Below, piece after piece: positions 15,793 to 30,750 of a stretch of DNA of 64,000 bases (the first letter of the stretch is position 1; each line of letters starts with the position of its first letter). Both the position numbers and the translations under genes were made by a program. A model generated the notes under the pieces. That model saw only the letters and a list, made by a program, of their open reading frames with translations. It made no database searches and was not told the origin of the DNA. The stretch is from an uncultured Acidobacteriaceae bacterium (GTDB taxonomy: Bacteria > Acidobacteriota > Terriglobia > Terriglobales > Acidobacteriaceae), in NCBI GenBank assembly GCA_903849645.1, contig CAINJJ010000030.1, positions 1 to 64,000 of the forward strand. The letters are read 5' to 3'.

Positions 15793-16362
15793 CTAGGAGA
15801 CGCGGCCGACGAGCTTCAGGTCGATTTCCACATCCTTGGCTACCTTGAGGATGAAGATGCTGGGATCCTTGAGCCCCCACTTGACGTACGGGACGTTGAA
15901 CCGGGTTGTTGCGGTGAGAGCGGAGCCGTCCACGTGAATCTGCATGGGGACGGTAAGGTCGTGGGGGGGTCCATGGAGTGTGAAGACGCCGGTGACCTGA
16001 ATGGTGGAGTCGCCCGACGGCGCGATGGCGCCGGTGTAGCTCTTGGGCACGAAGGTGACATCGGCGAAGTGAGGAACATCGAGCACATCATTGCTCATCT
16101 TCTTGTCCCTGCTCGGTTCTCCGCTGTTGCCGCTGCCGGCGGCGACAATGATCGAACCCGAGATGGTCCTCGCGGTACGGTCAAAATCAACGACCCCGCT
16201 TTGAACATGGAAAGTCCCGTTTACGTGGTGGAAATTGCCGCCGAGGGCAAAGGCCACTTCGCTGGCGTCTGGAGTGACCGTGAAAGTCTGATGCTGGGCG
16301 ACAGCGACAGGCGCGAAAGCCAGGGGAAGCGCGAGGAGCAGGGATTGAGCAATGGTCTTCAT
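15793..16362 (-). CDS. YceI-family isoprenoid-binding-type protein
   Basis: A 189-residue exported protein with signal peptide (residues 1-22, ending in VAVAQ) and the lipocalin-like YceI beta barrel: FTVTPDASEVAFALGG near the N-terminus, then SNDVLDVPHFADVTFVP, VTGVFTLHGPPHDLTVPM and a C-terminal VKWGLKDPSIFILKVAKDVEIDLKL. Structurally characterised YceI proteins (TTHA0802 type) hold a polyprenyl chain in the barrel. It is the last gene of the seven-gene operon, 27 bp after the MFS-cytochrome gene, and the first gene of that operon makes an isoprenoid diphosphate, so it may carry an isoprenoid product or quinone in the periplasm. That link is inference. Confidence 0.88.
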   Translation of the reverse strand: MKTIAQSLLLALPLAFAPVAVAQHQTFTVTPDASEVAFALGGNFHHVNGTFHVQSGVVDFDRTARTISGSIIVAAGSGNSGEPSRDKKMSNDVLDVPHFADVTFVPKSYTGAIAPSGDSTIQVTGVFTLHGPPHDLTVPMQIHVDGSALTATTRFNVPYVKWGLKDPSIFILKVAKDVEIDLKLVGRVS

Positions 16363-16389: not shown

Positions 16390-18285
16390 TTATGGATGAT
16401 TTGCCTGGCCGGCAAGTTGCACCAGCCAGAGGCTCAGAGAGGCAATTTCGTTGTCGGACAGGTATTCATGTCCGGGCATATCGGTGCCGGGGACACCGAA
16501 TTTGGCAATCTGGGCCAACCGGGCGGCGCGGATGGCCGGCGGCCCCGAAGGAGGCAAATAAAAGAAGGGCCCAACGGCGAGGTCGGGAGGCTGGCGCTTG
16601 AAGGAGGCCTTCCACTCATTCAGGGTACGCCCGCGGTTGCTGTGGCAGGTAGCGCAATGGCGTTCAAACAGAAGGCGGCCATCGTCGGCATCGGCCTGCG
16701 CGAGAGCTGCCGGGGATGGATGCCAGAGGCGTTGAGAAGCCTGGAGCGCCTCTGCGCCCGGCGTTTTGAGGGTGGCGAGATAGGCGACAAGGTCCTCTCC
16801 GCGGCGGCCGTCAAAGAGGAAGGCGTAGGTAGGCATGATGGAGGCCCCGCTGACCTCGGGCGGGTCGTAGAAGTGGGCCTTGAGCCAGAGGGGCGAGCGG
16901 CGCGCGCCGACTTCGGCGAGGTCCGGACCCTGGCGACGGTTGCCGATGAGGGGCGGACGCTCAAGGTGAATCTGCTCCATGGACCGGACCGGCCCCCACA
17001 TGAGGACGTCTGGAGTGTTGGGGCGGACAAACTGGGAGTGGCAGTTGATGCAGCCCTCCGAAATGTAGACCTGCCGACCTCGCTCGACCTGCGAAAGGGC
17101 TGGGGACGACGGTTCGCGGAGCAGGGTCCGCTGCAGCCCGTATGCGGCGAGGAACAGCGTGAAAATGACGGCCAGTTCCCTCTTGCGGCGCAGGAAGAAG
17201 GCCAGAAGCGCGGGCAGGAGGACCACGGTCCCTGCGGCGACTACAAACAGAGGCGGCACGTAGCCGAGATTCTGCCCCATGCCGATACCGAGGGCGGAGC
17301 CGCCCCATCCTGCGATGGCGTAGATCCAGCCTGCCTGCCGGCCGCGCTGGGCAAGCGAAGCTGCGGGGGCCAGCAGCGAGGGGTAGGCGACAAGCGCAAC
17401 CGAGTAGAGCGAGACGCCGATGGGATAAAAAAGCGACGCCAATAGCACGCGGTTGGGATCAAGCAGGAGCAGGCAGGCTCCGCCGAGAGCCAGAAAGGCC
17501 GCGGAAAGCACAAATGAGAGGCTGCGGCGGCTGAGCAGCCAGGCGCTGAGCAAGGCTGCGCCAAGATGGAGAAGTCCATTGCAATCCAGATGGAGGGCGC
17601 CCTGCCAGGTGCCTGCCTTGAGGGCGGGCGTGCTCTGGATGATGAAGAAGGCAGCGGAATCGAGCCAGACGAGAGCGGCAAAACAGGCCAGGACTTGCAG
17701 GAACGGCAGCGGGGAGGGCTGGGGTTGGCTGGTTTCTTCGGCTTCGGGCTGGGTTGGCAGCAAGGCAATGGCGGCGCCTGCAAGGCAGAGGAGCGCAGCA
17801 ACGGAGGCTTGCACCTCAGCCGGGGCGGTGAAGAGCGCGGGGATGTTGCAGATGAGGTAGCCGCTGCCGGTGCCAAGTCCCACCAGAAGGAGCGGGTTTG
17901 CGTCACCGGTCCAGAGGCGCAGGTGGGTAACCAGGGTGACGGTAAGCAACCCCAGACCGGCGCCGATGAAGAAGGCCACGGCCGCGGCTGCCGGCAAGTT
18001 GAGAGGAAGAAGGGAAAGGAGGGCGGCGGCCGCGGAGCCGAGAAGCCCGGCGCGGAGGCGAAGGGCGGGTGAGGGCCAACGATCAATCCGGGGAGCGAGC
18101 AGGCTGAGGAGGATGCCCCCGGCTGCCATGGCTCCCATGACCGCCTTCAGGTGCGCTCCGGCCACTCCCTGACCCGCCAGGCGCGTGAGAAACGCAAACT
18201 GGGCAAAGATCAGGAAGTAGACGTAGGTGATGGCGACCAGGACCGCGCCGCGCCACCCGGATTGTGCCTGACTACCGCGCGACAT
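16390..18285 (-). CDS. MFS-like membrane protein fused to two cytochrome c domains
   Basis: A 631-residue fusion. Residues about 15-385 hold some 12 membrane helices with MFS-like character, with a charged loop near 178-192 in the middle. Residues 398-510 form a haem domain resembling CcoO: CINCHSQFVRP with CxxCH at 412-416, then RRQGPDLAEVGARRSPLWLKAH and axial Met484 in SIMPTYAF. A second haem domain has CATCH at 544-548 and likely axial Met603 in TDMPGHEYL. The haem domains should be periplasmic. Its start overlaps the small membrane gene by 14 bp, and the operon also encodes a CcoN-like protein, so it probably replaces CcoO/CcoP in a cbb3-like complex. An MFS copper importer (CcoA) is known for cbb3 assembly, but I know of no characterised fusion of this kind. 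Confidence 0.75.
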   Translation of the reverse strand: MSRGSQAQSGWRGAVLVAITYVYFLIFAQFAFLTRLAGQGVAGAHLKAVMGAMAAGGILLSLLAPRIDRWPSPALRLRAGLLGSAAAALLSLLPLNLPAAAAVAFFIGAGLGLLTVTLVTHLRLWTGDANPLLLVGLGTGSGYLICNIPALFTAPAEVQASVAALLCLAGAAIALLPTQPEAEETSQPQPSPLPFLQVLACFAALVWLDSAAFFIIQSTPALKAGTWQGALHLDCNGLLHLGAALLSAWLLSRRSLSFVLSAAFLALGGACLLLLDPNRVLLASLFYPIGVSLYSVALVAYPSLLAPAASLAQRGRQAGWIYAIAGWGGSALGIGMGQNLGYVPPLFVVAAGTVVLLPALLAFFLRRKRELAVIFTLFLAAYGLQRTLLREPSSPALSQVERGRQVYISEGCINCHSQFVRPNTPDVLMWGPVRSMEQIHLERPPLIGNRRQGPDLAEVGARRSPLWLKAHFYDPPEVSGASIMPTYAFLFDGRRGEDLVAYLATLKTPGAEALQASQRLWHPSPAALAQADADDGRLLFERHCATCHSNRGRTLNEWKASFKRQPPDLAVGPFFYLPPSGPPAIRAARLAQIAKFGVPGTDMPGHEYLSDNEIASLSLWLVQLAGQANHP

Positions 18286-18682
18286 GGGCCAGCCAGCAGT
18301 TGCGTAGACCGATCACCTGGAACAGGACGCAGGCGCCGTCGGAGATGCCGACGGTGAGCCAACCCGGCTCAAGGGTATGGCCGAGCACGGCCGCGAAAAC
18401 GAAGAGGGCCACGCAGCCCCTGGTCAGCGCCGTAAGCTGCCAGATGGCCTCGACGCGGCAGGGGCTTTCGCGCTTGAGCATGAGCGAAGCACCATAGAAA
18501 CAGGCCAGGCCCACGGAGAGGACAAAGGCGCCAATAAAGGACTGGAACGGCAGCGTGTCCACGGGCGGATGAAGGCCCATGAGGCCCAGCGTAAAGGCCG
18601 GAGCGACAACCAGCAGCAGCCCGGTGGCGGTGTCAGACAGGCCGATAAGGATCTGGTAGGCGAGAAGAATGGTGCGGTTCAT
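18272..18682 (-). CDS. Small four-helix membrane protein of the cytochrome operon
   Basis: A 136-residue protein with about four membrane helices (near residues 7-32, 46-66, 80-104 and 108-126) and short loops. There are no Cys-His motifs or evident haem ligands. I do not recognise the family; the general form recalls small DoxX-like or oxidase accessory proteins. It overlaps the preceding CcoN-like gene by 4 bp (ATGA) and the following MFS-cytochrome gene by 14 bp, so it is almost certainly translated with them and belongs to the same membrane complex. Confidence 0.65.
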   Translation of the reverse strand: MNRTILLAYQILIGLSDTATGLLLVVAPAFTLGLMGLHPPVDTLPFQSFIGAFVLSVGLACFYGASLMLKRESPCRVEAIWQLTALTRGCVALFVFAAVLGHTLEPGWLTVGISDGACVLFQVIGLRNCWLAHVAR

Positions 18683-20034
18683 GCTGTCTTCTCCTGAGAA
18701 AGCGACAAGTGAAGGGAGACGGGTTCGGGCGGATGCAGCAGGGTGGATGCGTCGATGAGCCAGTCGAGAGAGGCCAGCAGCATGGCGATTCCTGAGACCA
18801 GTCGCAGTGCGTAGAGGCCGTTGCGCGCCACGCCAGGAACGATGGTGAAGGCCGGATCATAGCCCTCCCACCATCCGGCAACCGTCATGATGACGATATA
18901 GCCCACGACGGCAATATTCCATGCATAAAAGGAGCGCGTGCGGTTGAAGATCCATCCGCCCTCGCCCAGTATCTGAACCATGACGAAGATCAGCAGGCTG
19001 GAGGTGAAACCGGCCATGGCGACGAAGGAATGGCCCACGAGCCCGTCGGTGAACTTGAAGTGATCGAGGAGCCCGGGGAGAAAAAGCAGCCAGCCGGTAA
19101 GCACCAGCGCCCCCCACCAGGCGTAGAAGGCCAGTCGCCAGCGGTGGGTCTCCGGGCGCCAGTTGAAGGCTGCAAAGTAGGCGGGGATGAGGGGAATCCA
19201 GACCAGCAAGGAGCCGAGGCTGAGAAACTGCGCGGGGCTGCGATGGCTGATGTCGCGGCGCCCGAGGGCGAAGCACAGCGCGGACTCGGCCAGAAGCACT
19301 GCCCAGCCGAGAACGAGGACGCGGGAGGAGCCTGTCCTGCGCCGGGTAAGCCCGAACGGGAGCAACAGCAGCATGGCCACGACCATCAGTGACGATTCGA
19401 GCTGGCTCTGGCCGGTGGGTCCGCCCGTGTCGGGGTTCACGTAGGGGTAAACCGCGGGGCTGGAGGCGAGATACATCACGACGGGCACGGCCAGCAGCAG
19501 AATCAAGCCAACGATGCGGCCTGAGCGGGCAGCCCATCCTCTGCCGCCAGGCTGGTTCCATTGGCGGAGAAAGGAAAGCGCCAGCAGCAGCCAGAGGGCG
19601 AGCATGGCAAGCGGGAAGACGATGCGCGCAAAGCCGCTCCAGTCAAGAAAGAGCTTGCCGCTGGAGTGGCCGGAGAGCCAGGAAAGCGAGCCCGCTATGA
19701 GGGCGGCGGACCATGCCCACAGGGCGGGGCGGCACCATGCGGCAAGCGGGCCACGCTCTGTCCCATAGACCCTGAAAAGGAAGCCGGCCAGCGGAAGGCT
19801 GGACCATCCGTAGAGCATCAGGTTCATGTGGACCATGATCCAGCGGCCGTAGGTCCACTCGCCGAGCAGTCCGTTGATTCCGGGAAATAGAAGCAGAAGA
19901 GCGATGAGCACGCCGATGGAGTTGGCGACAACCAGCCAGAAGAGGCTGTGCCACGCGGCGCCCGCAAATCCAGGCGAAGTGGGTGAGGAAACGACACTGA
20001 TGTCAGAGGGAAACTGGCTCTTGGATTCTGCCAT
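18679..20034 (-). CDS. CcoN-like haem-copper oxidase subunit I homologue with missing ligands
   Basis: A 451-residue polytopic protein related to cbb3 oxidase subunit I, shorter than a normal CcoN. His69 in GRWIMVHMNLMLYGW matches the low-spin haem ligand of helix 2. FKFTDGLVGHSFVAM near the C-terminus matches the GHxH motif of helix 10, but only the first His is kept (His335); the second is Phe337. In the region of helices 6 and 7 (about 195-260) there is no His pair to bind CuB. As read, it could bind at most one or two haems without forming an O2-reducing centre. It sits between ABC transporter genes and a cytochrome c fusion. The ATG at 20034 has GGAG 7 bases upstream and overlaps the ATPase gene by 32 bp; the ATG at 20037 is an alternative. 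Confidence 0.72.
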   Translation of the reverse strand: MAESKSQFPSDISVVSSPTSPGFAGAAWHSLFWLVVANSIGVLIALLLLFPGINGLLGEWTYGRWIMVHMNLMLYGWSSLPLAGFLFRVYGTERGPLAAWCRPALWAWSAALIAGSLSWLSGHSSGKLFLDWSGFARIVFPLAMLALWLLLALSFLRQWNQPGGRGWAARSGRIVGLILLLAVPVVMYLASSPAVYPYVNPDTGGPTGQSQLESSLMVVAMLLLLPFGLTRRRTGSSRVLVLGWAVLLAESALCFALGRRDISHRSPAQFLSLGSLLVWIPLIPAYFAAFNWRPETHRWRLAFYAWWGALVLTGWLLFLPGLLDHFKFTDGLVGHSFVAMAGFTSSLLIFVMVQILGEGGWIFNRTRSFYAWNIAVVGYIVIMTVAGWWEGYDPAFTIVPGVARNGLYALRLVSGIAMLLASLDWLIDASTLLHPPEPVSLHLSLSQEKTA

Positions 20035-20707
20035 CATGCATCTCCAGTAGGCGGTCGCAACGGCCGGCCAGCCCGCGATCATGGGTGGCCATGACGAGTG
20101 TAATGCCCTCGGTGGCCGCAAGATTGAGCAGCAGGTCAAAAACAGCGCCGCTGGTGTGTTCATCGAGGGAGCCGGTTGGCTCGTCGGCCAGCAGGATTTT
20201 TGGGCGGTTCATGAGCGCGCGGCAGAGTGCCGTGCGCTGGCGCTCGCCGCCGGAGAGCTTTTGAATGCGATGGCCGAGGCGGTGCGAAAGCCCGGTGAGG
20301 CCAGTCAGCTCACGCAGGCGAGCCTGCGCCGAGCTCCGGTCAATGCCCGCGGCGACAGTGGGAATGAGGCAGTTTTCTTCCAGCGTCAGGTCGGGGATGA
20401 GGTTGTGCAGCTGGAAAACGAATCCAACCTCGTGGCGCAGCAGATGGACAAGGTTGCTCTTGCGTGTCATCTCCGCGCCGTTGACGGAAACGCGGCCGCG
20501 GTCAGGCGCGTCGAGCCCGCCGAAGAGATGGAGCAGGGTGCTCTTGCCGCATCCCGAGGGACCGCAAAGCGCCACGGTCTGGCCTTCGACAGCAGCGAAG
20601 TCAACGCCTTTGAGCACGGCAATGGCTCCGTCGTCGTAGCTCTTCCATACATCTTGCGCAGAGAGAACGATGCGCGGCTCAGAGGCATTTTGGGGGGCGA
20701 GGGTCAT
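20003..20707 (-). CDS. ABC transporter ATP-binding protein, LolD/MacB type
   Basis: A 234-residue nucleotide-binding subunit. The Walker A is CGPSGCGKSTLLHLFGG (about 48-64), the Q-loop lies in VGFVFQLHNLIPDLTLEEN, the signature motif is LSGGERQRTALCRAL (about 151-165), Walker B is ILLADEPTGSLDE and the switch His is in MATHD. The sequence class (Q-loop followed by LIPDLT, and the DEPTGSLD form) is that of LolD/MacB/FtsE partners of FtsX-like permeases. Its ATG overlaps the permease TGA by 4 bp, so the two form one transporter. It is not followed by a LolC/E pair; the next gene is the CcoN-like protein. The substrate is unknown, with a lipid or hydrophobic molecule the natural guess for this class. 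Confidence 0.9.
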   Translation of the reverse strand: MTLAPQNASEPRIVLSAQDVWKSYDDGAIAVLKGVDFAAVEGQTVALCGPSGCGKSTLLHLFGGLDAPDRGRVSVNGAEMTRKSNLVHLLRHEVGFVFQLHNLIPDLTLEENCLIPTVAAGIDRSSAQARLRELTGLTGLSHRLGHRIQKLSGGERQRTALCRALMNRPKILLADEPTGSLDEHTSGAVFDLLLNLAATEGITLVMATHDRGLAGRCDRLLEMHDGRIQEPVSL

Positions 20708-21816
20708 TCGAATCGAAGCGCCTCCACCGCACGTACGCGCATGGCATAGGCCGCTGGATAGAGCGCTCCGGTGATGCCGGTGACGAGAGCGAGAAGAATG
20801 ACGATCAGCATGACGGATGGGCGGAGCGTCACGTCCACATAGCCGTGCAGCGCCGGCACCAGCTTGAGGGCAAAGAGCAGGCAGGTCCCGGTGCCCAGGC
20901 CGAGCAAGGCTCCGACGATCGACACCACCGCGGACTCGCCGAAGATCATGGCGGCCACCTGGAGGTTGGAGAACCCATTCACGCGCAGGATGGCGATCTC
21001 GCGAATGCGGGTGAAGACCGACATGATCATGGTGTTGGCCACGCCCAGTCCGCCGAGGAGGAGGCCGCAACCGCCAACCGCCCAGGCCGTGGCCTTGAGA
21101 ATCTTGAACTGGGAGTAGGAGCGGGTGAATTCAGCGTCCTCCAGCCCAATGAGGTTGGCGAACTTCGCCTTGACCATGGCCTTGAAGGCCGGCGCGTCGT
21201 CCTTGCTGCGGAGGCGGATGGTGATGACCGAAGATGTGCCTTCCTTGTGGAAGAAGCTCTGCGCCGCGGCGAGAGGCATGAAGACGCCGCCATCCTCGAA
21301 GCCGTTGGCGGTGCGGAGAATGCCGATGACGTGAAAGACCCCATGGCCGATGGGTACGTGGTCGTCGAATTTGGCGGAGAGAAACTCGGCCGCGCGCTCG
21401 CCCAGCACCACATCGTCGGGGTTGCGGGCAAAGGTGTGACGGTCGCCCGCCACCCAGACGGCGCGCCGGATGCGGGCGTCGGCAGCTGTGACGCCAAAGC
21501 AGGTAATGATGGGGTGATCGGCGCTGGAGACGATTCCGAACAGGACCGGGTCGGCGTGGGCCACCGTGGGCCATGCGGCAATCTCCTCGACCGCCGCCGC
21601 TGGGACGTTGCTGAAGAAGAGATCGGAGACGTTGCGCTCGAAGACAATAACCTGGCTATCGCTGGAGAGGATGCCGGAAAACATGCCGATGGCGCCCTGC
21701 AGGACCGTAACCACGGTGAGCATGGCCGCCACGCTGAAGGCGATGCCGGCGATGCTGATGAGGGAGCGGATGCGGTGACGTAGCAGGTTGGTCAGAATCA
21801 GCTTGAGGAAGATCAC
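20704..21816 (-). CDS. ABC transporter permease, FtsX/MacB type
   Basis: A 370-residue permease with the FtsX layout: helix 1 near the N-terminus (IRSLISIAGIAFSVAAMLTVVTVL), a periplasmic domain of about 200 residues, then three helices (around 250-275, 300-325 and 335-360) with the coupling motif VFTRIREIAILRVNGFS. Such permeases work as mechanotransmitters, moving lipids or lipoproteins or driving periplasmic partners, and need not cross the membrane with substrate. I prefer the second GTG (21816) since GGAGG is 6 bases upstream and it gives a 4-bp GTGA overlap with the prenyl synthase stop; the first GTG, at 21822, abuts the ribosome site. No adaptor protein is encoded nearby. Confidence 0.85.
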   Translation of the reverse strand: MIFLKLILTNLLRHRIRSLISIAGIAFSVAAMLTVVTVLQGAIGMFSGILSSDSQVIVFERNVSDLFFSNVPAAAVEEIAAWPTVAHADPVLFGIVSSADHPIITCFGVTAADARIRRAVWVAGDRHTFARNPDDVVLGERAAEFLSAKFDDHVPIGHGVFHVIGILRTANGFEDGGVFMPLAAAQSFFHKEGTSSVITIRLRSKDDAPAFKAMVKAKFANLIGLEDAEFTRSYSQFKILKATAWAVGGCGLLLGGLGVANTMIMSVFTRIREIAILRVNGFSNLQVAAMIFGESAVVSIVGALLGLGTGTCLLFALKLVPALHGYVDVTLRPSVMLIVILLALVTGITGALYPAAYAMRVRAVEALRFE

Positions 21817-22736
21817 GAACACCCTCCAGCCGGTGTCGCGAACGCATCGCCGGTAACCCGGACAAGCTCCTCTTCCAGGTCCCCGCGCAGCTTGCGCAGA
21901 AACGACAAGCCGGGCTGGGACTTGAGCAGGCGGCAGAGCGTCCGGTCGCCCAGGCGGATGAAGCGGGTGAGCCGCTCGACGGCGGCGGGAATGCCCAGCA
22001 CCGAGGCCGAGTTGGGACGGTCGAGCAGCAGGTCGCGCGCCACGGTTTTGCCCGCCTCAGATGCGCTCTGGAGAACGTCTTTCAGGTCGTCCACCATCTG
22101 GTAACCCAACCCCCAGAAGAGGGCGATGCGCTCCAGCAACTGCACCTGCCGAGCCGATGCGCCGCCCAGCATGGCCGGCAGCACCAGGGTCAGGCGAATG
22201 AGCGAGACCGTCTTGCCGCGCGCAATCTGTTCGGTGGTCTCGCGCGTGGGGGGCAGGGTGGCGTAGTGCAGGTCGAGGCTCTGGCCGTTGAGCAGCCCTT
22301 CCACACCCAGACACTGCTCGATGTAAGCAAGGGCAGTGGACTGCAGAGGGACCGGGGCGGCAGCGACAGCGCGCCAGGTGAGCGCATAGGCGCGATTGAT
22401 AAGAGCCAGGGCGGTGAGAATGGCGCCCGCCTCGCCATAGGCCAGGTGAACACAGGGAACGCCGCGGCGCTCCGTCGCATTGTCCATGCAGGGCAGGTCG
22501 TCAAAGAGCAGAGAGGCTGTGTGGAAGTACTCGAGCGCAACTGCCAGGTCGCGGGCAGGCGCAGGGTCCATTCCGTAGGCGGAGGCCACCTGGAAGACCA
22601 TCCTGGGCCTGACCAGGCTGCCGGCGTTATCAAGCACATGGCGAAGAGATTCCTCAAAATGAGGATCGAGCGTCGCGGGCAGCGGCATACCGGAACTGAA
22701 AGCATCCGCAAACGGCGTTGTGGTCAGACTGTTCAT
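21813..22736 (-). CDS. Isoprenyl diphosphate synthase (polyprenyl synthetase family)
   Basis: A 307-residue trans-isoprenyl diphosphate synthase that condenses isopentenyl diphosphate with an allylic diphosphate. The first aspartate-rich motif is DDLPCMD (79-85) followed by ERRGVPC, and the second is MVDDLKD. The residues four and five before the first Asp are Ser75 and Ala74, small side chains that in characterised enzymes allow chains longer than C15, so GGPP or longer is likely; this is inference. It is the first gene of the leftward operon and overlaps the permease by 4 bp. A housekeeping role in quinone or carotenoid biosynthesis is possible, but its tight coupling to transport and cytochrome genes suggests a dedicated product. 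Confidence 0.85.
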   Translation of the reverse strand: MNSLTTTPFADAFSSGMPLPATLDPHFEESLRHVLDNAGSLVRPRMVFQVASAYGMDPAPARDLAVALEYFHTASLLFDDLPCMDNATERRGVPCVHLAYGEAGAILTALALINRAYALTWRAVAAAPVPLQSTALAYIEQCLGVEGLLNGQSLDLHYATLPPTRETTEQIARGKTVSLIRLTLVLPAMLGGASARQVQLLERIALFWGLGYQMVDDLKDVLQSASEAGKTVARDLLLDRPNSASVLGIPAAVERLTRFIRLGDRTLCRLLKSQPGLSFLRKLRGDLEEELVRVTGDAFATPAGGCS

Positions 22737-23067
22737 GCAGGGCGCAACAAGCGCTCACGACCTCTTTCTGTTTTTCTGGAGCTCTAGAGTCCATTGTAAG
22801 CGCAGGAAGAATCCGCGCGCCGAACTCAGGAGCAAACTTCCGTGAACCCAGGTTCAAGAGTAAGACGGGTTCGGGAATGGTTTGGCGAGCGTGAAACCGG
22901 CCCTGAAACCGTGACAATTCGTTCATCTGTCGCGGCCGGGTGAAGCGGGCGATGCAGGCCAGCCCGGCGGGTAAAAAGGTTGAAGTCTGCCTGCTTTGGC
23001 CGTGAGATGAAGTGGGATCTTTTTAACCTTCGATGAAAATGCCGTTGAAATCTTCTAATATCCACTC
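22737..23067. promoter_or_regulatory. Divergent control region, cytochrome operon / two-component system
   Basis: This 331-bp spacer separates the seven-gene leftward operon from the rightward response regulator. It holds the palindrome TGAACC-CA-GGTTCA (22843-22856) and a tandem direct repeat TGAAACCG at 22892-22899 and 22904-22911. A TAATAT at 23056-23061 just before the regulator start may be a -10 box. No terminators are seen. The layout suggests the two-component system controls the divergent operon. Confidence 0.5.
22892..22911. promoter_or_regulatory. Candidate OmpR-family tandem boxes
   Basis: Two identical copies of TGAAACCG are separated by 4 bp, a 12-bp period close to one helical turn. 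OmpR/PhoB-type regulators bind tandem direct repeats of about this spacing as head-to-tail dimers. It lies between the divergent operon and the gene for such a regulator. Identification is by pattern only. Confidence 0.4.
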
Positions 23068-23745
23068 ATGCGACTGATGCTTGTTGAAGACGAAATCGAG
23101 ATTCAGGGCTTCCTTCGATCTTCTCTCGCCGAAGCTGGTTATGAAGTGAGGGTTGCAGGCGATGGGGCCAGCGCCTTGTAGTTGGCCGTTGGCGGACCCT
23201 TCGAGATCCTGATTGTCGATCTCGGATTGCCGGACATGGACGGGATCGACCTGATTTTGAAGCTACGGAGCCTCGGGGTACGGGCCCCGGTGCTGATTCT
23301 TTCGGCGCGGCGCAGCGTGGATGACCGGGTGCGCGGACTGGAACAGGGCGGGGACGACTACCTGACCAAGCCTTTTGCGCTGGCGGAGTTGCTGGCCCGG
23401 TTGCGCAACCTGGTCCGTCGCAACACTCCGGCGACAGCCGAAGCCACCAAACTGCGCGTGCGGGACCTGGAACTGGACCTGTTTCGCCGGGAGGCCACCC
23501 GCGCGGGACAAACCCTGCAACTGACGCCGCAGGAGTTTGTGCTGCTGGAGTATCTTTGCCGCAATGTGGGCAGGGTGGTGACACGCTCCATGATTCTGGA
23601 GGAAGTGTGGGGTATGCGGATTCAGCCCGATACCAACGTGGTGGATGTGCATATTTACCGGCTAAGGGGCAAGGTGGATGGGAAGGGGCAGGAACCGCTC
23701 ATCCGGACCATGCGAGGTGTGGGCTATGCCATCAACGACAAGTAG
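23068..23745 (+). pseudogene. OmpR-family response regulator interrupted by an in-frame TAG
   Basis: The reading frame from ATG 23068 encodes a normal 225-residue regulator apart from a TAG at codon 38 (23179-23181). The first 37 residues contain the start of a receiver (MRLMLVEDEIEIQGFLR) with its acidic pocket. After the stop come the phosphoacceptor Asp51 in LIVDLGLPDMDG, the LTKPF lysine, and a complete winged-helix domain (LQLTPQEFVLLEYLCRNVG and the C-terminal RTMRGVGYAIND). One base change separates TAG from Gln or Glu codons, which fit the family here. A TTG follows directly at 23182, but no ribosome site is visible; a product from there would lack the acidic pocket. Options are a true nonsense mutation, readthrough or a sequencing error. 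The kinase gene overlaps its end by 20 bp. Confidence 0.8.
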
Positions 23746-25192
23746 AACCTCGATTCGCTCCGCCGCGTGGCGAATCTCCCTGTGGGGCACACTGGCTTTC
23801 GCCTTCGGAACGATGTTCGTGTTTATCTTTCTGCACAGCTTTGTGGCCAGCGACATCGAACGCCGCAGCGACTCATGGCTCTCGGGCGAGGTGGAGGTCC
23901 TGGGCGATGTGGCCAACCGGACGCCCAAGGATGCGCTCTACGGCACGGTAGTGGAAGAAGTGGCCGAACTGGCGGGCAAGGAAGTGCCCCTTTTGTATCG
24001 GGAGAGCCGCTCGGATGATACGGTCTTTTTTCTGCAAACCGGCAGCGATGGAGGATTGAAGCTGTGGGTGGGCGCCGGCAGCGGATTGTCCTTTGTGCAG
24101 GCCATCCGGGGACTTTCCATCGTTCCCGACCAGCCGACAGACCTCCAGGTAAAGGGATTCGGAGTTCCCTATCGCGTTGCGTCCTTCGTGATGAACGACG
24201 GGAGCACAATCTATCTGGGGCTTTCGGAGCGGGACGAACTGAGGGTCTTGAGACAGCTTCGAGTTCGCTTCATCTCGATCTGGGCGCTGCTGGTCTTGCT
24301 CGGCTTCAGCATCGAGTTCTTCACCACACGCCGCATGCTGCGGCCGGTCCGTGAGATCAACGAGGCCGCATCAAGAATTGGCCACTCCGACCTGACGGCC
24401 CGGGTTCCCACCACGCCGCAGAACGACGAGGTGGGACAACTGGCGGGCACCTTGAACCGGATGCTGGACCGCATCGAGAGCTCAGTGCACCAGTTGCACA
24501 CCATCACCGATTCGCTGGCGCACGATCTGCGCAGTCCGCTGACGGCGATTCGCGGCAAGCTGGAGATGTCGTTGACAGGCGCCACGGAGGATGAGCGGAC
24601 GGAAGCCATTATCGGGTCAATCGATGAGCTGGACCGGCTGACCGACTTCCTGAACAAAAGCCTCGATGTGGCCGAGGCCCGGGCCGATGCGCTGCGACTC
24701 TCCCCGGTCGCCGTGGATCTGGACGAATTGTTGCGTGTGATGGTGGATCTGTATGAACCCTCGATGTCGGAGAAGGGCATCTCGATGTGGCTTCGCAGCA
24801 CCGGACCGCTCTACGTGGAGGCGGATGCAGCCTTGCTGCATCGCATGGCCGCCAACCTGTTTGACAACGAGCTCAAGCACCTGAGAGCAGGCTGCACGGT
24901 GAGGATCAGCCTCAGCGACCAGGCGCAGGCAGCGATGATGGTGTTTGAGGACGACGGGCCGGGGTTTGACGCGGAAGTGACGCCGCACTTGTTTGAAGAC
25001 CGAGTACGGGGTAAGAACTCCAAGGGCCACGGGCTCGGTCTGGCGTTCATTGGAGCGGTGGCGCGCGCTCACGGTGGAACGGTCAGCGCGATAAATCGGA
25101 TCGGCGGCGGCGCCCGAATCGAAGTCACCCTGCCCGCACCGGAGAAAAAGGGAGTCGAAGCAGCGGAACAGACCGCAATCGGCTCGCATTGA
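23726..25192 (+). CDS. Sensor histidine kinase
   Basis: A 488-residue HisKA-type kinase. A first membrane helix (about 16-40) and a second (about 181-200) flank a periplasmic sensor of roughly 140 residues. A HAMP domain follows (RRMLRPVREINEAASRIG), then the dimerisation helix with phosphoacceptor His266 (SLAHDLRSPLTAIRGKLE). The catalytic domain shows the N-box (AANLFDNELKH, about 375-385), DDGPGF (409-414) and GHGLGLAF (434-441). The arrangement is that of CusS/CopS-like and related envelope-stress kinases, but no metal-binding motif is evident in the sensor. Its start lies 20 bp inside the response regulator gene, so translation is normally coupled, and the upstream TAG should reduce its expression by polarity. 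It is complete in itself. Confidence 0.9.
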   Translation: MPSTTSRTSIRSAAWRISLWGTLAFAFGTMFVFIFLHSFVASDIERRSDSWLSGEVEVLGDVANRTPKDALYGTVVEEVAELAGKEVPLLYRESRSDDTVFFLQTGSDGGLKLWVGAGSGLSFVQAIRGLSIVPDQPTDLQVKGFGVPYRVASFVMNDGSTIYLGLSERDELRVLRQLRVRFISIWALLVLLGFSIEFFTTRRMLRPVREINEAASRIGHSDLTARVPTTPQNDEVGQLAGTLNRMLDRIESSVHQLHTITDSLAHDLRSPLTAIRGKLEMSLTGATEDERTEAIIGSIDELDRLTDFLNKSLDVAEARADALRLSPVAVDLDELLRVMVDLYEPSMSEKGISMWLRSTGPLYVEADAALLHRMAANLFDNELKHLRAGCTVRISLSDQAQAAMMVFEDDGPGFDAEVTPHLFEDRVRGKNSKGHGLGLAFIGAVARAHGGTVSAINRIGGGARIEVTLPAPEKKGVEAAEQTAIGSH

Positions 25193-26301: not shown

Positions 26302-26712
26302 GGCGGGCTTGCCTGAATCCGTCCTCCCGATGAGCGGAAATCCCGTTTTCAAGAGATGCGGGGATACGCAGAGTTTTGATGCCGCCGCAAAGGGTGGGGC
26401 CCTTTCTGACCTGGTCGTTCAACTCTGAGTCCACCCCGTGGATGTGCAGTTTGGCGTCTTACGCTGCCGAAATTTCGCCTCTTCGGGCTCCAAAATGCGC
26501 TTGCGGAGACTTCAGGTCTCCGGGTTTGAAAGGTTTACTAGTCAAGTCGTTTCATGCCGCGATAGTGACCAATGATGTGTGACGCAGCGCACATCCCATC
26601 GTTGTTTCGGATGGGTAGTTTCCATCCATCCACTGGGAGTCCAGCAAGGCGCCGCCCCTCGCGGGTTGGTTTGCTCGATTGGATTCACCGGTACCCGCAC
26701 AGCGAGGTAGCA
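26302..26712. other. Spacer upstream of the hydrogenase operon
   Basis: About 410 bp without a gene. It contains a small hairpin (AAAGGG 26389-26394 with CCCTTT 26400-26405) that may end pyrD transcription, a CRP/FNR-like palindrome at 26578-26593, and a second 6-bp hairpin CCCATC/GATGGG around 26595-26615. The hya promoter is expected in the right half, but I could not assign its boxes. Confidence 0.5.
26578..26593. promoter_or_regulatory. Candidate CRP/FNR-family site before hyaA
   Basis: TGTGACGCAGCGCACA matches TGTGA-N6-TCACA at nine of ten informative positions and is also flanked by GATG/CATC, extending the palindrome. It lies 119 bp upstream of the hyaA start. Regulation of uptake hydrogenase by an oxygen- or starvation-sensing CRP/FNR protein is plausible; the regulator gene is not in the window. 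Confidence 0.5.
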
Positions 26713-27816
26713 ATGGGTCAATCTATTTGGCAATCGATGGAGCAGAAGGGCTACAGCCGCAGAGACTTTCTCCAGTTCTGCGCCGCAGCCGCAACCGTGG
26801 CCGGCTTTGGTCAAACCGGCGTCGCCCAGGTGGTCTCGGCATTCGAGAAGAAGGAAAAACCTGCCGTCGTTTGGATGCACTTCCAGGAGTGCACCTGCTG
26901 CAGTGAATCGTTCATCCGGGCATCGCATCCGATCGTCGCCGATGCTCTGCTCGATGTGCTGTCGCTGAACTACACCGAAACTCTGATGGCGGCCTCCGGC
27001 TTCCAGGCAGAGAAGAGTCTCAATGACACCATCCGCGACCACAAGGGCAAGTACATCGTGCTGGTCGAGGGCGCTGTGCCCACAAAGGACGACGGCGTCT
27101 ACTGCATGATCGGCGGCAAGACGGCCGAGTCCATTCTGCAGACGGTGGCCAAGGATGCGGCGGCGGTGGTGGCGTGGGGCAGTTGCGCTTCCAACGGCTG
27201 CGTGCAGGCAGCCAAGCCGAATCCAACCGGCGCGACTCCGATTCACAAGCTGATCGACAAGCCGGTCATCAACGTTCCCGGTTGCCCGCCCATCGCCGAC
27301 GTGATGATGGCCGTGGTGACCCACGTGCTGGTTCTGGGACAGATTCCCGCGCTCGACAGCCTGGGCCGGCCAAAAGAGTTCTATGGACGCCGCGTCCACG
27401 ACACCTGCTATCGCCGTCCCAACTACGACGCCGGGCTGTTTGTCGAATCGTTTGACGACGAGAACGCGCGCAAGGGCTATTGCCTCTACAAGATGGGCTG
27501 CCGCGGTCCTGTCACCTACAACGCCTGCTCCGTGGTCAAGTGGAACGAAGGCACCAGCTATCCCATTCAGTCCGGCCATGGCTGCATCGGCTGCAGCGAG
27601 GAAGGCTTCTGGGACAACGGTCCGTTCTATCAGCACCTGGCTTCGTTCCCCGGCTTCGGCATCGAGAGCACAGCGGATACGGTGGGTACAGTGGTGGGAG
27701 TCGCCACCCTGGCCGGCGTTGCGGCTCACGCCGTGGTCACCAATATTCGCAAGCACAAGGTGATTGCGGAAGTGCATGCGGAAGAACATCATGACGCGGA
27801 AAACAAGGAGTCGTAG
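26713..27816 (+). CDS. hyaA: O2-tolerant [NiFe] hydrogenase small subunit
   Basis: A 367-residue electron-transfer subunit that passes electrons from the NiFe site to cytochrome b. A twin-arginine signal (YSRRDFLQFCAAAA) is at residues 14-27, so the folded enzyme is exported to the periplasmic side. The proximal cluster ligands are C60, C62 and C63 (ECTCCSES), C158 and C163 (WGSCASNGC) and C191. The extra C62 and C163 are the two that distinguish the [4Fe-3S] cluster of O2-tolerant enzymes such as E. coli Hyd-1. Distal and medial cluster ligands follow (HDTCYRRPNY, CSVVKW, GCIGCSE), then a C-terminal membrane helix (about 323-342). The ATG at 26713 has GAGG 6 bases upstream. The stop is TAG. 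Confidence 0.95.
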   Translation: MGQSIWQSMEQKGYSRRDFLQFCAAAATVAGFGQTGVAQVVSAFEKKEKPAVVWMHFQECTCCSESFIRASHPIVADALLDVLSLNYTETLMAASGFQAEKSLNDTIRDHKGKYIVLVEGAVPTKDDGVYCMIGGKTAESILQTVAKDAAAVVAWGSCASNGCVQAAKPNPTGATPIHKLIDKPVINVPGCPPIADVMMAVVTHVLVLGQIPALDSLGRPKEFYGRRVHDTCYRRPNYDAGLFVESFDDENARKGYCLYKMGCRGPVTYNACSVVKWNEGTSYPIQSGHGCIGCSEEGFWDNGPFYQHLASFPGFGIESTADTVGTVVGVATLAGVAAHAVVTNIRKHKVIAEVHAEEHHDAENKES

Positions 27817-27822
27817 ACAGCT

Positions 27823-29535
27823 ATGACACGAGTAGTCGTTGATCCAGTAACTCGCATTGAAGGCCACCTCCGCGTTGAGGCAGTGGTGGAAAATGGCGTC
27901 ATCAAGGACGCATTCAGCTCAGGCACCATGGTGCGCGGCCTGGAGAAGATTCTCATCGGCCGCGACCCCCGCGACGCCTGGGCCATCACCGAGCGCGTTT
28001 GCGGCGTTTGCACCACGGTTCATGCCCTGGCCAGCGTACGCGCAGTTGAAGACGCGATCGGCGTCGCCGTTCCTCCAACCGCGGAGTTGATCCGCAACAT
28101 CATGATGGCCACTCTCTATGTACAGGACCACGTGGTGCACTTCTACCACCTGCACGCCCTGGACTGGGTGGACATCGTCAACGCCCTCAAGGCCGACCCC
28201 AAGAAGGCCGCGGAACTGGCGCAATCGTTCTCCAAGTGGGACAAGAACACGCCAGCCTACTTCACCGAAGTGCAGAACAAGATCAAGTCGTTTGCTGCCA
28301 GCGGCCTGGGCATCTTTGCCAACGGGTACTGGGGCCATCCGGCCTACAAGCTGCCGCCCGAGGTGAACCTGATCGGCGTGGCTCACTATCTGGACGCCCT
28401 GGAATGGCAGAAGGAAGTGGTGAAGATTCACACCGTGTTCGGTGGCAAGAACCCGCACCCGAACTACCTTGTGGGCGGCGTTCCCTGCTCCATCGATGTG
28501 GATGAAGTGGCGGCGATCAACAGCGAGCGGCTCAATCTGGTGGCGCGCCTGATCAGCCAGGCGGACGAGTTTGTGAACGAGGTCTACATTCCTGATCTGC
28601 TCGCGGTGGCTTCGTTCTACAAGGACTGGGCGAGCTGGGGCGGCGGGCTGAAGAACTACCTCAGCTATGGCGAGTACCCGACGCAGGGCTACGGCAAGCC
28701 GGAAGCCTTCAAGTATCCGCGCGGCGTGGTGCTCAACCGCGACCTGTCAAAGGTCTACCCGGTCAACCCCAAAGACTCCCAGGAGATCAAGGAATACATC
28801 GCCTCCTCCTGGTACAGCTACGAGGGCGGAGAAAACGTGGGCATTCACCCGTGGGCCGGAGAAACCAAGCTCAATTACACGGGACCAAAGCCTCCCTTCG
28901 AGACCCTGGAAGGCCACGCGAAGTATTCGTTCCTCAAGACTCCGCGCTGGAAAGACAATCCTATGGAAGTGGGCCCGCTGGCCAGGCTTGTGGTTGCCTA
29001 TGCCTCTGGCCACACCGACGTTCAGGAACTGGTGAAGGACACCCTGGGCAAGCTCAACGTGCCGGTCACCGCCCTGTTCTCTACCCTGGGCCGCACCGCG
29101 GCTCGCGGCCTGGATGCGGCGCTTGCCATGATCTGGCTCAAGGAGTTCTTTGGACAGTTGATGGATCGCGTAAAGACCCGCGAGACCTCAACCTTCAATC
29201 CCGAGAAGTGGGAGCCGAAGAGCTGGGCGGCGGAGTGCGAGGGCGTGGGACTGGTGGAAGCTCCCCGCGGTTCACTGGCGCACTGGATCAAGATCAAGGA
29301 CGGCAAGATCGACAACTACCAACTCGTGGTGCCGACCACCTGGAACGGTTCCCCGCGCGATGCCAAGGGGCAGCGTTCATCGTTTGAAGAGTCGCTCATT
29401 GGTACCCCGGTGGCGAACGTCGAACAGCCGGTCGAGATCATTCGCACCATCCACTCCTTTGACCCGTGCCTGGCCTGTGCCGTGCATTTGTACGATCCAC
29501 AGGGAAAGCACCTTAACCAGGTTTCCTTCGAGTGA
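27823..29535 (+). CDS. hyaB: [NiFe] hydrogenase large subunit
   Basis: A 570-residue catalytic subunit that splits H2. The NiFe ligands are present in both motifs: RVCGVCTTVHA with C60 and C63, and DPCLACAVH with C549 and C552. The 15 residues after H555 (beginning LYDPQGK) are the C-terminal extension that a dedicated protease removes after nickel insertion. The N-terminal VVDPVTRIEGHLRVE is typical. It begins 6 bp after hyaA and its stop overlaps the cytochrome b start, so hyaABCD are one operon. Together with the six-cysteine small subunit it indicates aerobic H2 uptake, possibly from low ambient concentrations. Hyp maturation genes are not in the window. Confidence 0.96.
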   Translation: MTRVVVDPVTRIEGHLRVEAVVENGVIKDAFSSGTMVRGLEKILIGRDPRDAWAITERVCGVCTTVHALASVRAVEDAIGVAVPPTAELIRNIMMATLYVQDHVVHFYHLHALDWVDIVNALKADPKKAAELAQSFSKWDKNTPAYFTEVQNKIKSFAASGLGIFANGYWGHPAYKLPPEVNLIGVAHYLDALEWQKEVVKIHTVFGGKNPHPNYLVGGVPCSIDVDEVAAINSERLNLVARLISQADEFVNEVYIPDLLAVASFYKDWASWGGGLKNYLSYGEYPTQGYGKPEAFKYPRGVVLNRDLSKVYPVNPKDSQEIKEYIASSWYSYEGGENVGIHPWAGETKLNYTGPKPPFETLEGHAKYSFLKTPRWKDNPMEVGPLARLVVAYASGHTDVQELVKDTLGKLNVPVTALFSTLGRTAARGLDAALAMIWLKEFFGQLMDRVKTRETSTFNPEKWEPKSWAAECEGVGLVEAPRGSLAHWIKIKDGKIDNYQLVVPTTWNGSPRDAKGQRSSFEESLIGTPVANVEQPVEIIRTIHSFDPCLACAVHLYDPQGKHLNQVSFE

Positions 29536-30266
29536 TGCCCATGAGTGCTCCAGTAATTGGTGCAGGCAAACTGGTTCCGGCAGTTCACAATCATCCGGTC
29601 GAATATCGGCGCGTGTATGTTTGGGAACTGCCGGTGCGCGCCTACCATTGGATCAACGCAATCGCCCTGGTGGCCCTGTGCGTAACGGGGTATCTGATTG
29701 GTGCGCCCATCCGCGCCTTTTATGCGGCTGAGGCCTACCAGCAGTACTGGTTCGGCTGGGTGCGTTTCATCCATTTCTTCTGCGCGTACGTTTACGTCTT
29801 CAACTTCCTGGCGCGTCTCTATTGGGGATTTGTAGGGAACAAGTACTCCCGGTGGAACGCATTCTTTCCGCTCCAGAAGGCGCAGCGGCAGGAGATTGTG
29901 GATGTGATCAAGGCGGATGTGCTCGAGACCAAGCTCCACGGGCCCATCTCTACTGGCCACAACGCTCTGGCGGGATTCATCTACTTCTTCACCTTCCTGG
30001 CGTTTGTGGCGCAGACCGTAACCGGCTTCGCCCTTTACTCCAGCATGAGCAACTCGTGGATGCCAAGGCTCTTCAACTGGATCGTGCCCCTGATGGGCGG
30101 GGAGATGGGCGTTCGCTACTGGCACCACGTTTTCCTGTGGTTCTTCGTCACGTTTATCATCGTCCACGTGTATCTTGCGTTCTATCATGACTACATCGAG
30201 GGTCGCGGCACCATCTCCTCGATCGTAGGCGGATGGAAGTTTGAGCGGGAGAAGAGTGACGACTGA
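29535..30266 (+). CDS. hyaC: Hydrogenase cytochrome b subunit
   Basis: A 243-residue integral membrane protein that anchors the hydrogenase and passes electrons to the quinone pool. Four membrane helices are visible with haem-ligating histidines: VRAYHWINAIALVALCVTGY (about 36-55), FIHFFCAYVYVFNFLARLYW, HNALAGFIYFFTFLAFVAQ and YWHHVFLWFFVTFIIVHVYL. The C-terminal HDYIEGRGTISSIVGGWKFE matches the HyaC tail. The start at 29535 overlaps the hyaB stop (TGATG); the ATG at 29541 is an alternative. It overlaps the protease gene by 11 bp. Confidence 0.93.
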   Translation: MPMSAPVIGAGKLVPAVHNHPVEYRRVYVWELPVRAYHWINAIALVALCVTGYLIGAPIRAFYAAEAYQQYWFGWVRFIHFFCAYVYVFNFLARLYWGFVGNKYSRWNAFFPLQKAQRQEIVDVIKADVLETKLHGPISTGHNALAGFIYFFTFLAFVAQTVTGFALYSSMSNSWMPRLFNWIVPLMGGEMGVRYWHHVFLWFFVTFIIVHVYLAFYHDYIEGRGTISSIVGGWKFEREKSDD

Positions 30267-30750
30267 GACGAATCGTGGCAAGACGCTGGTGCTGGGACTG
30301 GGCAACGTCCTGATGCAGGATGAAGGCGTCGGCGTTTATGTAGTCAGGGCTCTGGAACAACACCCACTGCCAGATGGCGTGGAGTGCATGGATGGCGGCA
30401 CCGGCGGCTTCACGCTGCTGGGGCCGCTCCAGAGCGCAGAGCGCATCATCCTCATCGACGCGGCAGCGGACGGCAACCCGGAAGGGACCGTGACGCGCAC
30501 CACCCCGCGCTTCTCACATGACTACCCTCCCACGCTCACCGCGCACGACATCGGCGTAAAAGACCTGCTGGATGTCTTTTATATCCAGGGCGGCGGCCGC
30601 GACGTGGTGCTCTATGCGATTACCATCAATCCACGCCAGCCCATCGCCATGAGCCTTTCGCCTTTGACGCAGAAGGCCGCCGATGAGGCGGTTGCGCGGA
30701 TTCTGGCGGAGTTGCAGGCCAGCTCATCCCGCGAGGCCGAGCGTTCGTAG
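30256..30750 (+). CDS. hyaD: Hydrogenase maturation endopeptidase
   Basis: A 164-residue aspartyl-type protease (HybD/HyaD family) that cleaves the C-terminal tail of the large subunit after nickel insertion. It shows the family start LVLGLGNVLMQDEGVGVYVV with the Ni-sensing Glu, IILIDAAADGNPEG with the second ligand Asp, and TAHDIGVKDLLD with the His. The start is a GTG with GGGAG about 5 bases upstream, inside the end of hyaC. It is the last gene of the operon; HyaE/HyaF chaperones are not encoded next to it, and the next gene is on the opposite strand. Stop is TAG. Confidence 0.9.
   Translation: MTTETNRGKTLVLGLGNVLMQDEGVGVYVVRALEQHPLPDGVECMDGGTGGFTLLGPLQSAERIILIDAAADGNPEGTVTRTTPRFSHDYPPTLTAHDIGVKDLLDVFYIQGGGRDVVLYAITINPRQPIAMSLSPLTQKAADEAVARILAELQASSSREAERS

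Follow-up and report, generated by a model that had tools for sequence, protein, structure and literature searches.

A probable recent nonsense mutation in the CusR-like response regulator gene of an Acidobacteriaceae genome

When a regulator gene that otherwise looks sound carries one stop codon inside its frame, what has happened to it? The question is raised by an OmpR/CusR-type response regulator gene (23068..23745, forward strand), identified by its homologue, domain, and family matches, in an uncultured Acidobacteriaceae genome of 4.54 Mb in 56 contigs, rated 100% complete. The stretch of DNA that we analyzed, which we call the window, is 64,000 bases long and comprises bases 1-64000 of a 244,750-base contig. 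An earlier note on this stretch had offered four readings of the interruption: a recent loss of control over a divergent cytochrome operon, a truncated regulator blind to phosphorylation, readthrough of the stop, or a base error.

When translated, the frame at 23068-23745 has 225 codons, zero frameshifts, and a terminator of its own, the TAG at 23743-23745. As the note had described, it is an OmpR-type frame whose sole interruption is the TAG at 23179-23181 (forward strand), which is codon 38, and this TAG falls in the interval between the acidic pocket and Asp51: E7, D8, and E9 come before the stop, and D51, S79, Y98, and K101 come after it, all of them kept. In this family, E7/D8/E9 correspond to the acidic pocket and Asp51 to the phosphoacceptor, and S79, Y98, and K101 to further residues with known roles. 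The TTG that had been seen immediately behind the TAG is indeed there as codon 39. It begins a downstream frame (23182..23745, forward strand) of 187 open codons, which covers the remainder of the receiver domain and the complete winged-helix DNA-binding domain (Trans_reg_C). The intact orthologues have the receiver with Asp51 and the winged helix in one frame, as an OmpR-type regulator should; in the window, both domains are encoded, but TAG38 splits the frame. Because a Response_reg match found by profile search of the own genome spans the stop (E-value 1.4e-23), and because the read-through frame is 76-83% identical to 18 same-genus orthologues among the matches listed, this frame, as judged from these similarities, is a true homologue and not a chance open frame.

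The gene that follows was said to be a kinase gene that overlaps the regulator's end and is intact, and we agree on both points. The sensor histidine kinase (23726..25192, forward strand, with a longer ORF from 23678) has HAMP, HisKA, and HATPase_c domain matches; it starts at an ATG at either 23678 or 23726, it ends at 25192, and its frame and motifs are kept. Its best NCBIfam match is TIGR01386 (E-value 8.7e-57). In an alignment of 49 rows we see four kinase stops, all at query positions 473-485 of 488 (including the TAA of G063), which are natural ends. A search with the kinase finds relatives chiefly among Acidobacteriaceae and other Acidobacteria, Terracidiphilus and Granulicella included.

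Is the stop shared with any relative? Comparing the same locus in related genomes was a check proposed with the original observation, and none of the 67 regulator frames that we read has an internal stop. These frames come from 71 scanned loci, one of which is cut at a contig end and three of which lack the gene. The stop is thus absent from the orthologues, which is one of the marks of a pseudogene. After removing two distant homologues (about 50% identity), one assembly-gap locus, and 12 duplicates, 52 distinct orthologues remain. The assembly-gap locus, L044, shows an apparent deletion of 22 residues, which we set aside as it adjoins residues that translate to X and cannot be read. Another two loci are intact as well, one of them probably from the same assembly as L042. 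Within the genus, a close orthologue is present in 18 of 35 relatives, and all are free of stops among the matches listed. In the own genome, we did not find a backup copy of the regulator, the next best match listed being 47% identical (G000:C41), and a search of a plasmid collection gave zero matches.

Regulators of this kind seldom contain a stop, yet this is not the sole case: two of the 150 regulator matches listed do, the window's own and an unrelated regulator of another genus member. The latter (L131 8317-8979, minus strand, in genome G012) is an OmpR-type regulator whose codon 9, within the acidic pocket, is TAG; its frame is otherwise open and a kinase-like frame adjoins it.

A stop that is seen only once, in a gene with intact orthologues that has kept its active-site residues, its promoter, and its operator, is also just what one expects of a sound gene in which a base was miscalled or misassembled, so that the organism itself would have an intact regulator. 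We think this unlikely. The assembly is not visibly rich in errors, since the 138 domain matches in the own genome contain no further stop (see below), although this weighs little. The codons around the stop point weakly the same way. Codon 38 varies freely among the orthologues (R, Q, L, S, K, E, A, T, and others), and codon 37, which is L in the window, is E in 43 of the 52 orthologues and L in none of them. Since the spot differs from its relatives by more than one base, a single base error gains no special support from it, and the codon 37-38 difference would fit a diverged stretch of sequence; as an argument against a base error it is a weak one.

Alternatively, the stop could be real but not respected, by readthrough or suppression of the TAG, which would yield some full-length regulator. 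In favor of this, in-frame stops have been argued to be widespread in bacterial genes, many of which are under purifying selection, according to PMC7918605. Yet in this genome TAG is an ordinary stop. It ends the regulator gene itself, and at 27814-27816 it separates the in-frame genes for the small and large hydrogenase subunits. When we look for stop-bearing domain matches in the own genome, we find one in 54 receiver matches, which is the interrupted regulator, none in 45 ABC ATPase matches, and none in 39 HATPase matches, that is, 1 in 138. ARAGORN reads no CTA anticodon among 42 genomic tRNA matches, a set that is incomplete, as it lacks Asp and Ile. Genome-wide recoding or suppression of TAG was rejected on these two results, the single stop in 138 domain matches and the missing CTA anticodon. 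The stop is seen in one genome only. Readthrough is left without positive support here, with no TAG-reading tRNA among the 42 matches and with TAG ending other genes normally, and we regard it as highly improbable.

We also searched 224,000 bases (the window and eight stretches of 20 kb) for further split genes by their coding potential. Both versions of the scan missed the known case; the stricter one reported one site and the looser one 18, whose lengths suggest that they are mostly neighboring genes that share a frame. The hydrogenase genes belong to a [NiFe] hydrogenase-like group at 26572-30750, downstream of a pyrD-like gene, with a small and a large subunit, a cytochrome b-like gene, and a maturation protease-like gene; hydrogenase and pyrD-like are names that we assigned from reading the translations.

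What would this regulator have controlled? On the minus strand, divergent from it, an operon opens with a polyprenyl synthetase gene (farnesyl diphosphate synthase-like, 21813..22736), followed by a MacB/LolC-like permease (20704..21822), a LolD-like ABC ATPase (20003..20755), a conserved membrane protein in a 494-codon ORF (18679..20163), a conserved small protein to which we assign no function (18272..18682), a protein of 631 residues with FixO-like mono-haem and cytochrome c domains behind a membrane N-terminal part (16390..18285), and, at its end, a YceI-family protein (15793..16362). So the "divergent cytochrome operon" of the earlier note is a divergent operon with a cytochrome gene in it, but its first genes encode a polyprenyl synthetase and the two proteins of an ABC exporter, with the cytochrome late. 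The YceI-family gene adjoins the FixO-like gene in all four relatives that were fetched with long flanks. The 494-codon membrane protein has no sequence match in Pfam, NCBIfam, or PDB, one PDB match at an E-value of 0.24 being taken as chance, and we propose that it may be a relative of oxidase subunit I. Its true start is probably some 40 codons further in, because most of its relatives have stops ahead of codon 42, where nearly all the stops in the compared rows fall (one is at 484 of 494). Among the domain and NCBIfam matches of the operon, no metal efflux gene was recognized.

Between the divergent genes we find a putative operator, CGTGACAATTCGTTCATC (22910..22927, forward strand), a CusR-box-like sequence that is conserved at orthologous loci, where the consensus from other species is GATGACGATTTGTTCATC. 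The consensus was read by eye from the orthologues and not produced by a motif finder. Of 47 orthologous upstream regions, 40 have a site within four mismatches of it. The window's own site has four, and when its intergenic stretch is shuffled by dinucleotides, 4 of 500 shuffles do as well. There is, then, a dyad candidate operator between the regulator and the divergent operon, as expected of a CusR-like system. Allowing up to three mismatches, the 17-base core of the operator has a single site in the window, while at least one such match occurs in 10 of 100 shuffled windows. We infer that this regulator would bind the operator at 22910-22927. Elsewhere in the genome, there are three operator-like sites with one mismatch, compared to zero for a reversed control pattern; the lists of ORFs that neighbor these three sites have no common theme.

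The regulator gene also has a promoter-like element. A -10-like hexamer, TAATAT (23056..23061, forward strand), is located six bases upstream of the regulator ATG, and a hexamer with at most one mismatch to it is found at the exact same position in 27 of 48 upstream regions, the window included. This position just ahead of the ATG, and its being shared, suggests that the regulator messenger may be leaderless. Both control elements, operator and hexamer, are kept in the window.

The genes at this locus travel together. Of the 49 loci L029-L077, 27 carry regulator and kinase together with the divergent genes for polyprenyl synthetase, permease, and ATPase, the remaining ones being short contigs or lacking the operon nearby. 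Four relatives were inspected as longer stretches (eight pieces), with the module within one piece in two of them and across two pieces in the other two. In a set of 40 genus genomes that includes the own one, we count 21 with the kinase and 18 with the permease. Every one of the 18 permease-bearing genomes also has the kinase, and the 19 that lack the kinase all lack the permease too. Three genomes (G015, G033, and G035) carry the kinase but no permease; not all of the genomes are complete. Among the 35 same-genus relatives, regulator and kinase occur in the identical 18 genomes, as far as the regulator matches listed go. We did not find the divergent operon without the regulator/kinase pair in the 40 genus genomes, some of them incomplete. 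Because many genus members do without regulator, kinase, operator, and operon, the whole module, judging by this distribution, is dispensable.

If the regulator has been lost, selection on its sequence should tell. We fitted a two-ratio codon branch model with our own script (F3x4, one tree) to the 16 of 26 taxa that have all five genes. For regulator codons 1-217, omega is 0.081 on the window branch and 0.048 elsewhere, with a likelihood ratio of 2.84; for the full gene it is 0.092 vs. 0.049 (likelihood ratio 4.09). By itself the rise is not significant, or at best borderline. These values come from a tree in which the position of the window has modest support, and from a codon model without a saturation correction; the branch lengths indicate that synonymous sites are probably near saturation. 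On the same branch, omega compared with elsewhere is 0.042 vs. 0.113 for the polyprenyl synthetase, 0.035 vs. 0.072 for the permease, and 0.049 vs. 0.115 for the ATPase (likelihood ratios 14.72, 9.45, and 9.40), and the kinase is unchanged (0.00). The regulator is the only one of the five genes with a raised omega on the window branch, and this contrast is clearer than the rise by itself.

How unusual is this rise? When each of the 16 terminal branches is taken as the focus, the window ranks fifth: L034 goes up (3.56), and L036, L045, and L030 go down (7.51, 4.06, and 3.40). Swings in omega are common in the regulator gene, as four other branches depart more than the window does. An omega of 1 over the whole window branch is rejected (likelihood ratio 70.6), and at about the 95% level the data allow values from slightly above 0.04 to slightly below 0.15. 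Since an omega of 1 is excluded for the branch as a whole, decay, if there is any, is confined to the last small part of it. We also counted departures at sites that are at least 95% conserved. The regulator has six (median 1), the second highest of 46 rows; in a wider set of 53 rows it has five, behind two rows and level with two. The kinase has five (median 2, rank 10 of 47), the 494-codon membrane protein three (median 2, rank 8 of 25), and the polyprenyl synthetase, permease, and ATPase one each, against medians of 2, 2, and 1. Such departures do not date the stop. A slight rise in omega is predicted by a recent nonsense mutation and not by a base error, so that the pattern of regulator up and three operon genes down leans weakly to a real recent nonsense mutation, and the raised omega counts a little against the base error discussed above.

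The stop could also be real and the gene still be of use, if translation restarts at TTG39 or further down and gives a fragment that keeps the DNA-binding domain but is indifferent to phosphorylation. The long downstream frame with its full Trans_reg_C allows for it, and the point estimates of omega speak for it, being highest before the stop (0.147 vs. 0.051) and least raised in the DNA-binding part (0.053 vs. 0.041). However, none of the three parts comes near significance (likelihood ratios 2.37, 1.06, and 0.32), and a strong ribosome-binding site is absent before all internal starts: the best duplex energies are -6.4 at codons 75 and 112 and -4.7 at TTG39, taken as absolute values. Nor is TTG39 special, as 5 of 45 other rows also have TTG there. 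In the OmpR family, the product of a restart at TTG39 would be without the first receiver strands and not phosphorylatable, and what is left of the receiver is not expected to fold. Taken further, this reading would have the stop turn an activator under phosphorylation control into a DNA-binding protein that has no receiver and is constitutive, with the operon uncoupled from its sensor and not silenced. A precedent for acting unphosphorylated is AgrR, a silver-resistance regulator, but one of full length, as reported in PMC7380067. For the truncated, phosphorylation-blind regulator of the earlier note we found no convincing restart signal; we consider such a piece improbable, and a constitutive DNA-binding protein of this kind quite doubtful.

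What we favor, and think probable, is a real and recent nonsense mutation in a CusR-like regulator gene, with a dead product and with signal control of the divergent operon lost. We infer all of this, the reality and the recency of the mutation as well as the operon's loss of control. Of the four alternatives offered at the outset, recent loss of control is the best supported, because the module and the operator are conserved, the orthologues are intact, and the window branch has a slight excess of unusual changes; readthrough is the one without positive support. Under this nonsense mutation, translation would end after 37 residues, ahead of Asp51 and of the entire DNA-binding domain, and lacking both, the product would be inactive. 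A product of 37 residues is not expected to function in the OmpR family. Signal-dependent switching of the polyprenyl synthetase, ABC exporter, and cytochrome operon through the putative operator at 22910-22927 would be lost. The kinase, though intact, would be left without a partner. It may also be poorly made, because about 545 bases ahead of its overlapping start would go untranslated.

A single nonsense codon in a regulator is an ordinary kind of event, and one such codon in one regulator of one environmental genome is alone of little weight. If true, it would be a small clean example of how the loss of a dispensable regulatory module can begin with the regulator, the operon, kinase, promoter, and operator still being in place when the regulator goes. 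The by-product of the comparison may be more useful: a conserved CusR-like pair with its operator and a little-understood divergent membrane/cytochrome operon, common to many Acidobacteriaceae.

How does the locus compare with known systems? Among the papers that our literature search listed, nothing concerned this particular gene; related work concerns in-frame stops and CusR-type or silver regulators. The best NCBIfam match is the CusR/CopR-type family TIGR01387, both for the window's downstream frame (E-value 6.5e-58) and for the intact orthologue L010 (E-value 4.5e-69), but neither reaches the family cut-off of 279.2, with 195.9 and 232.4 bits, respectively. The window kinase likewise stays below the TIGR01386 cut-off (193.1 vs. 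292.55). In E. coli, CusR reportedly binds AAAATGACAAnnTTGTCATTTT, which lies between cusRS and cusCFBA in the same divergent layout with a TGAC-type dyad (PMC11195947); the left half of that site is alike in the window's putative operator. The window differs from the CusR/CopR type in that its operon is without a recognized metal efflux gene and in that its regulator copy is interrupted. AgrR of Cupriavidus metallidurans, as described in PMC7380067, is active unphosphorylated and has an inverted-repeat operator; it is full length with a receiver, while the receiver of the window regulator is cut. Finally, in-frame stops in bacteria are reported to be widespread, many of the genes still being under purifying selection, to be artefacts in what may be a substantial fraction of cases, and to tend to persist only briefly (PMC7918605). 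Like those nonsense-interrupted genes, the window regulator resembles its orthologues apart from one in-frame stop, which is seen in a single genome.
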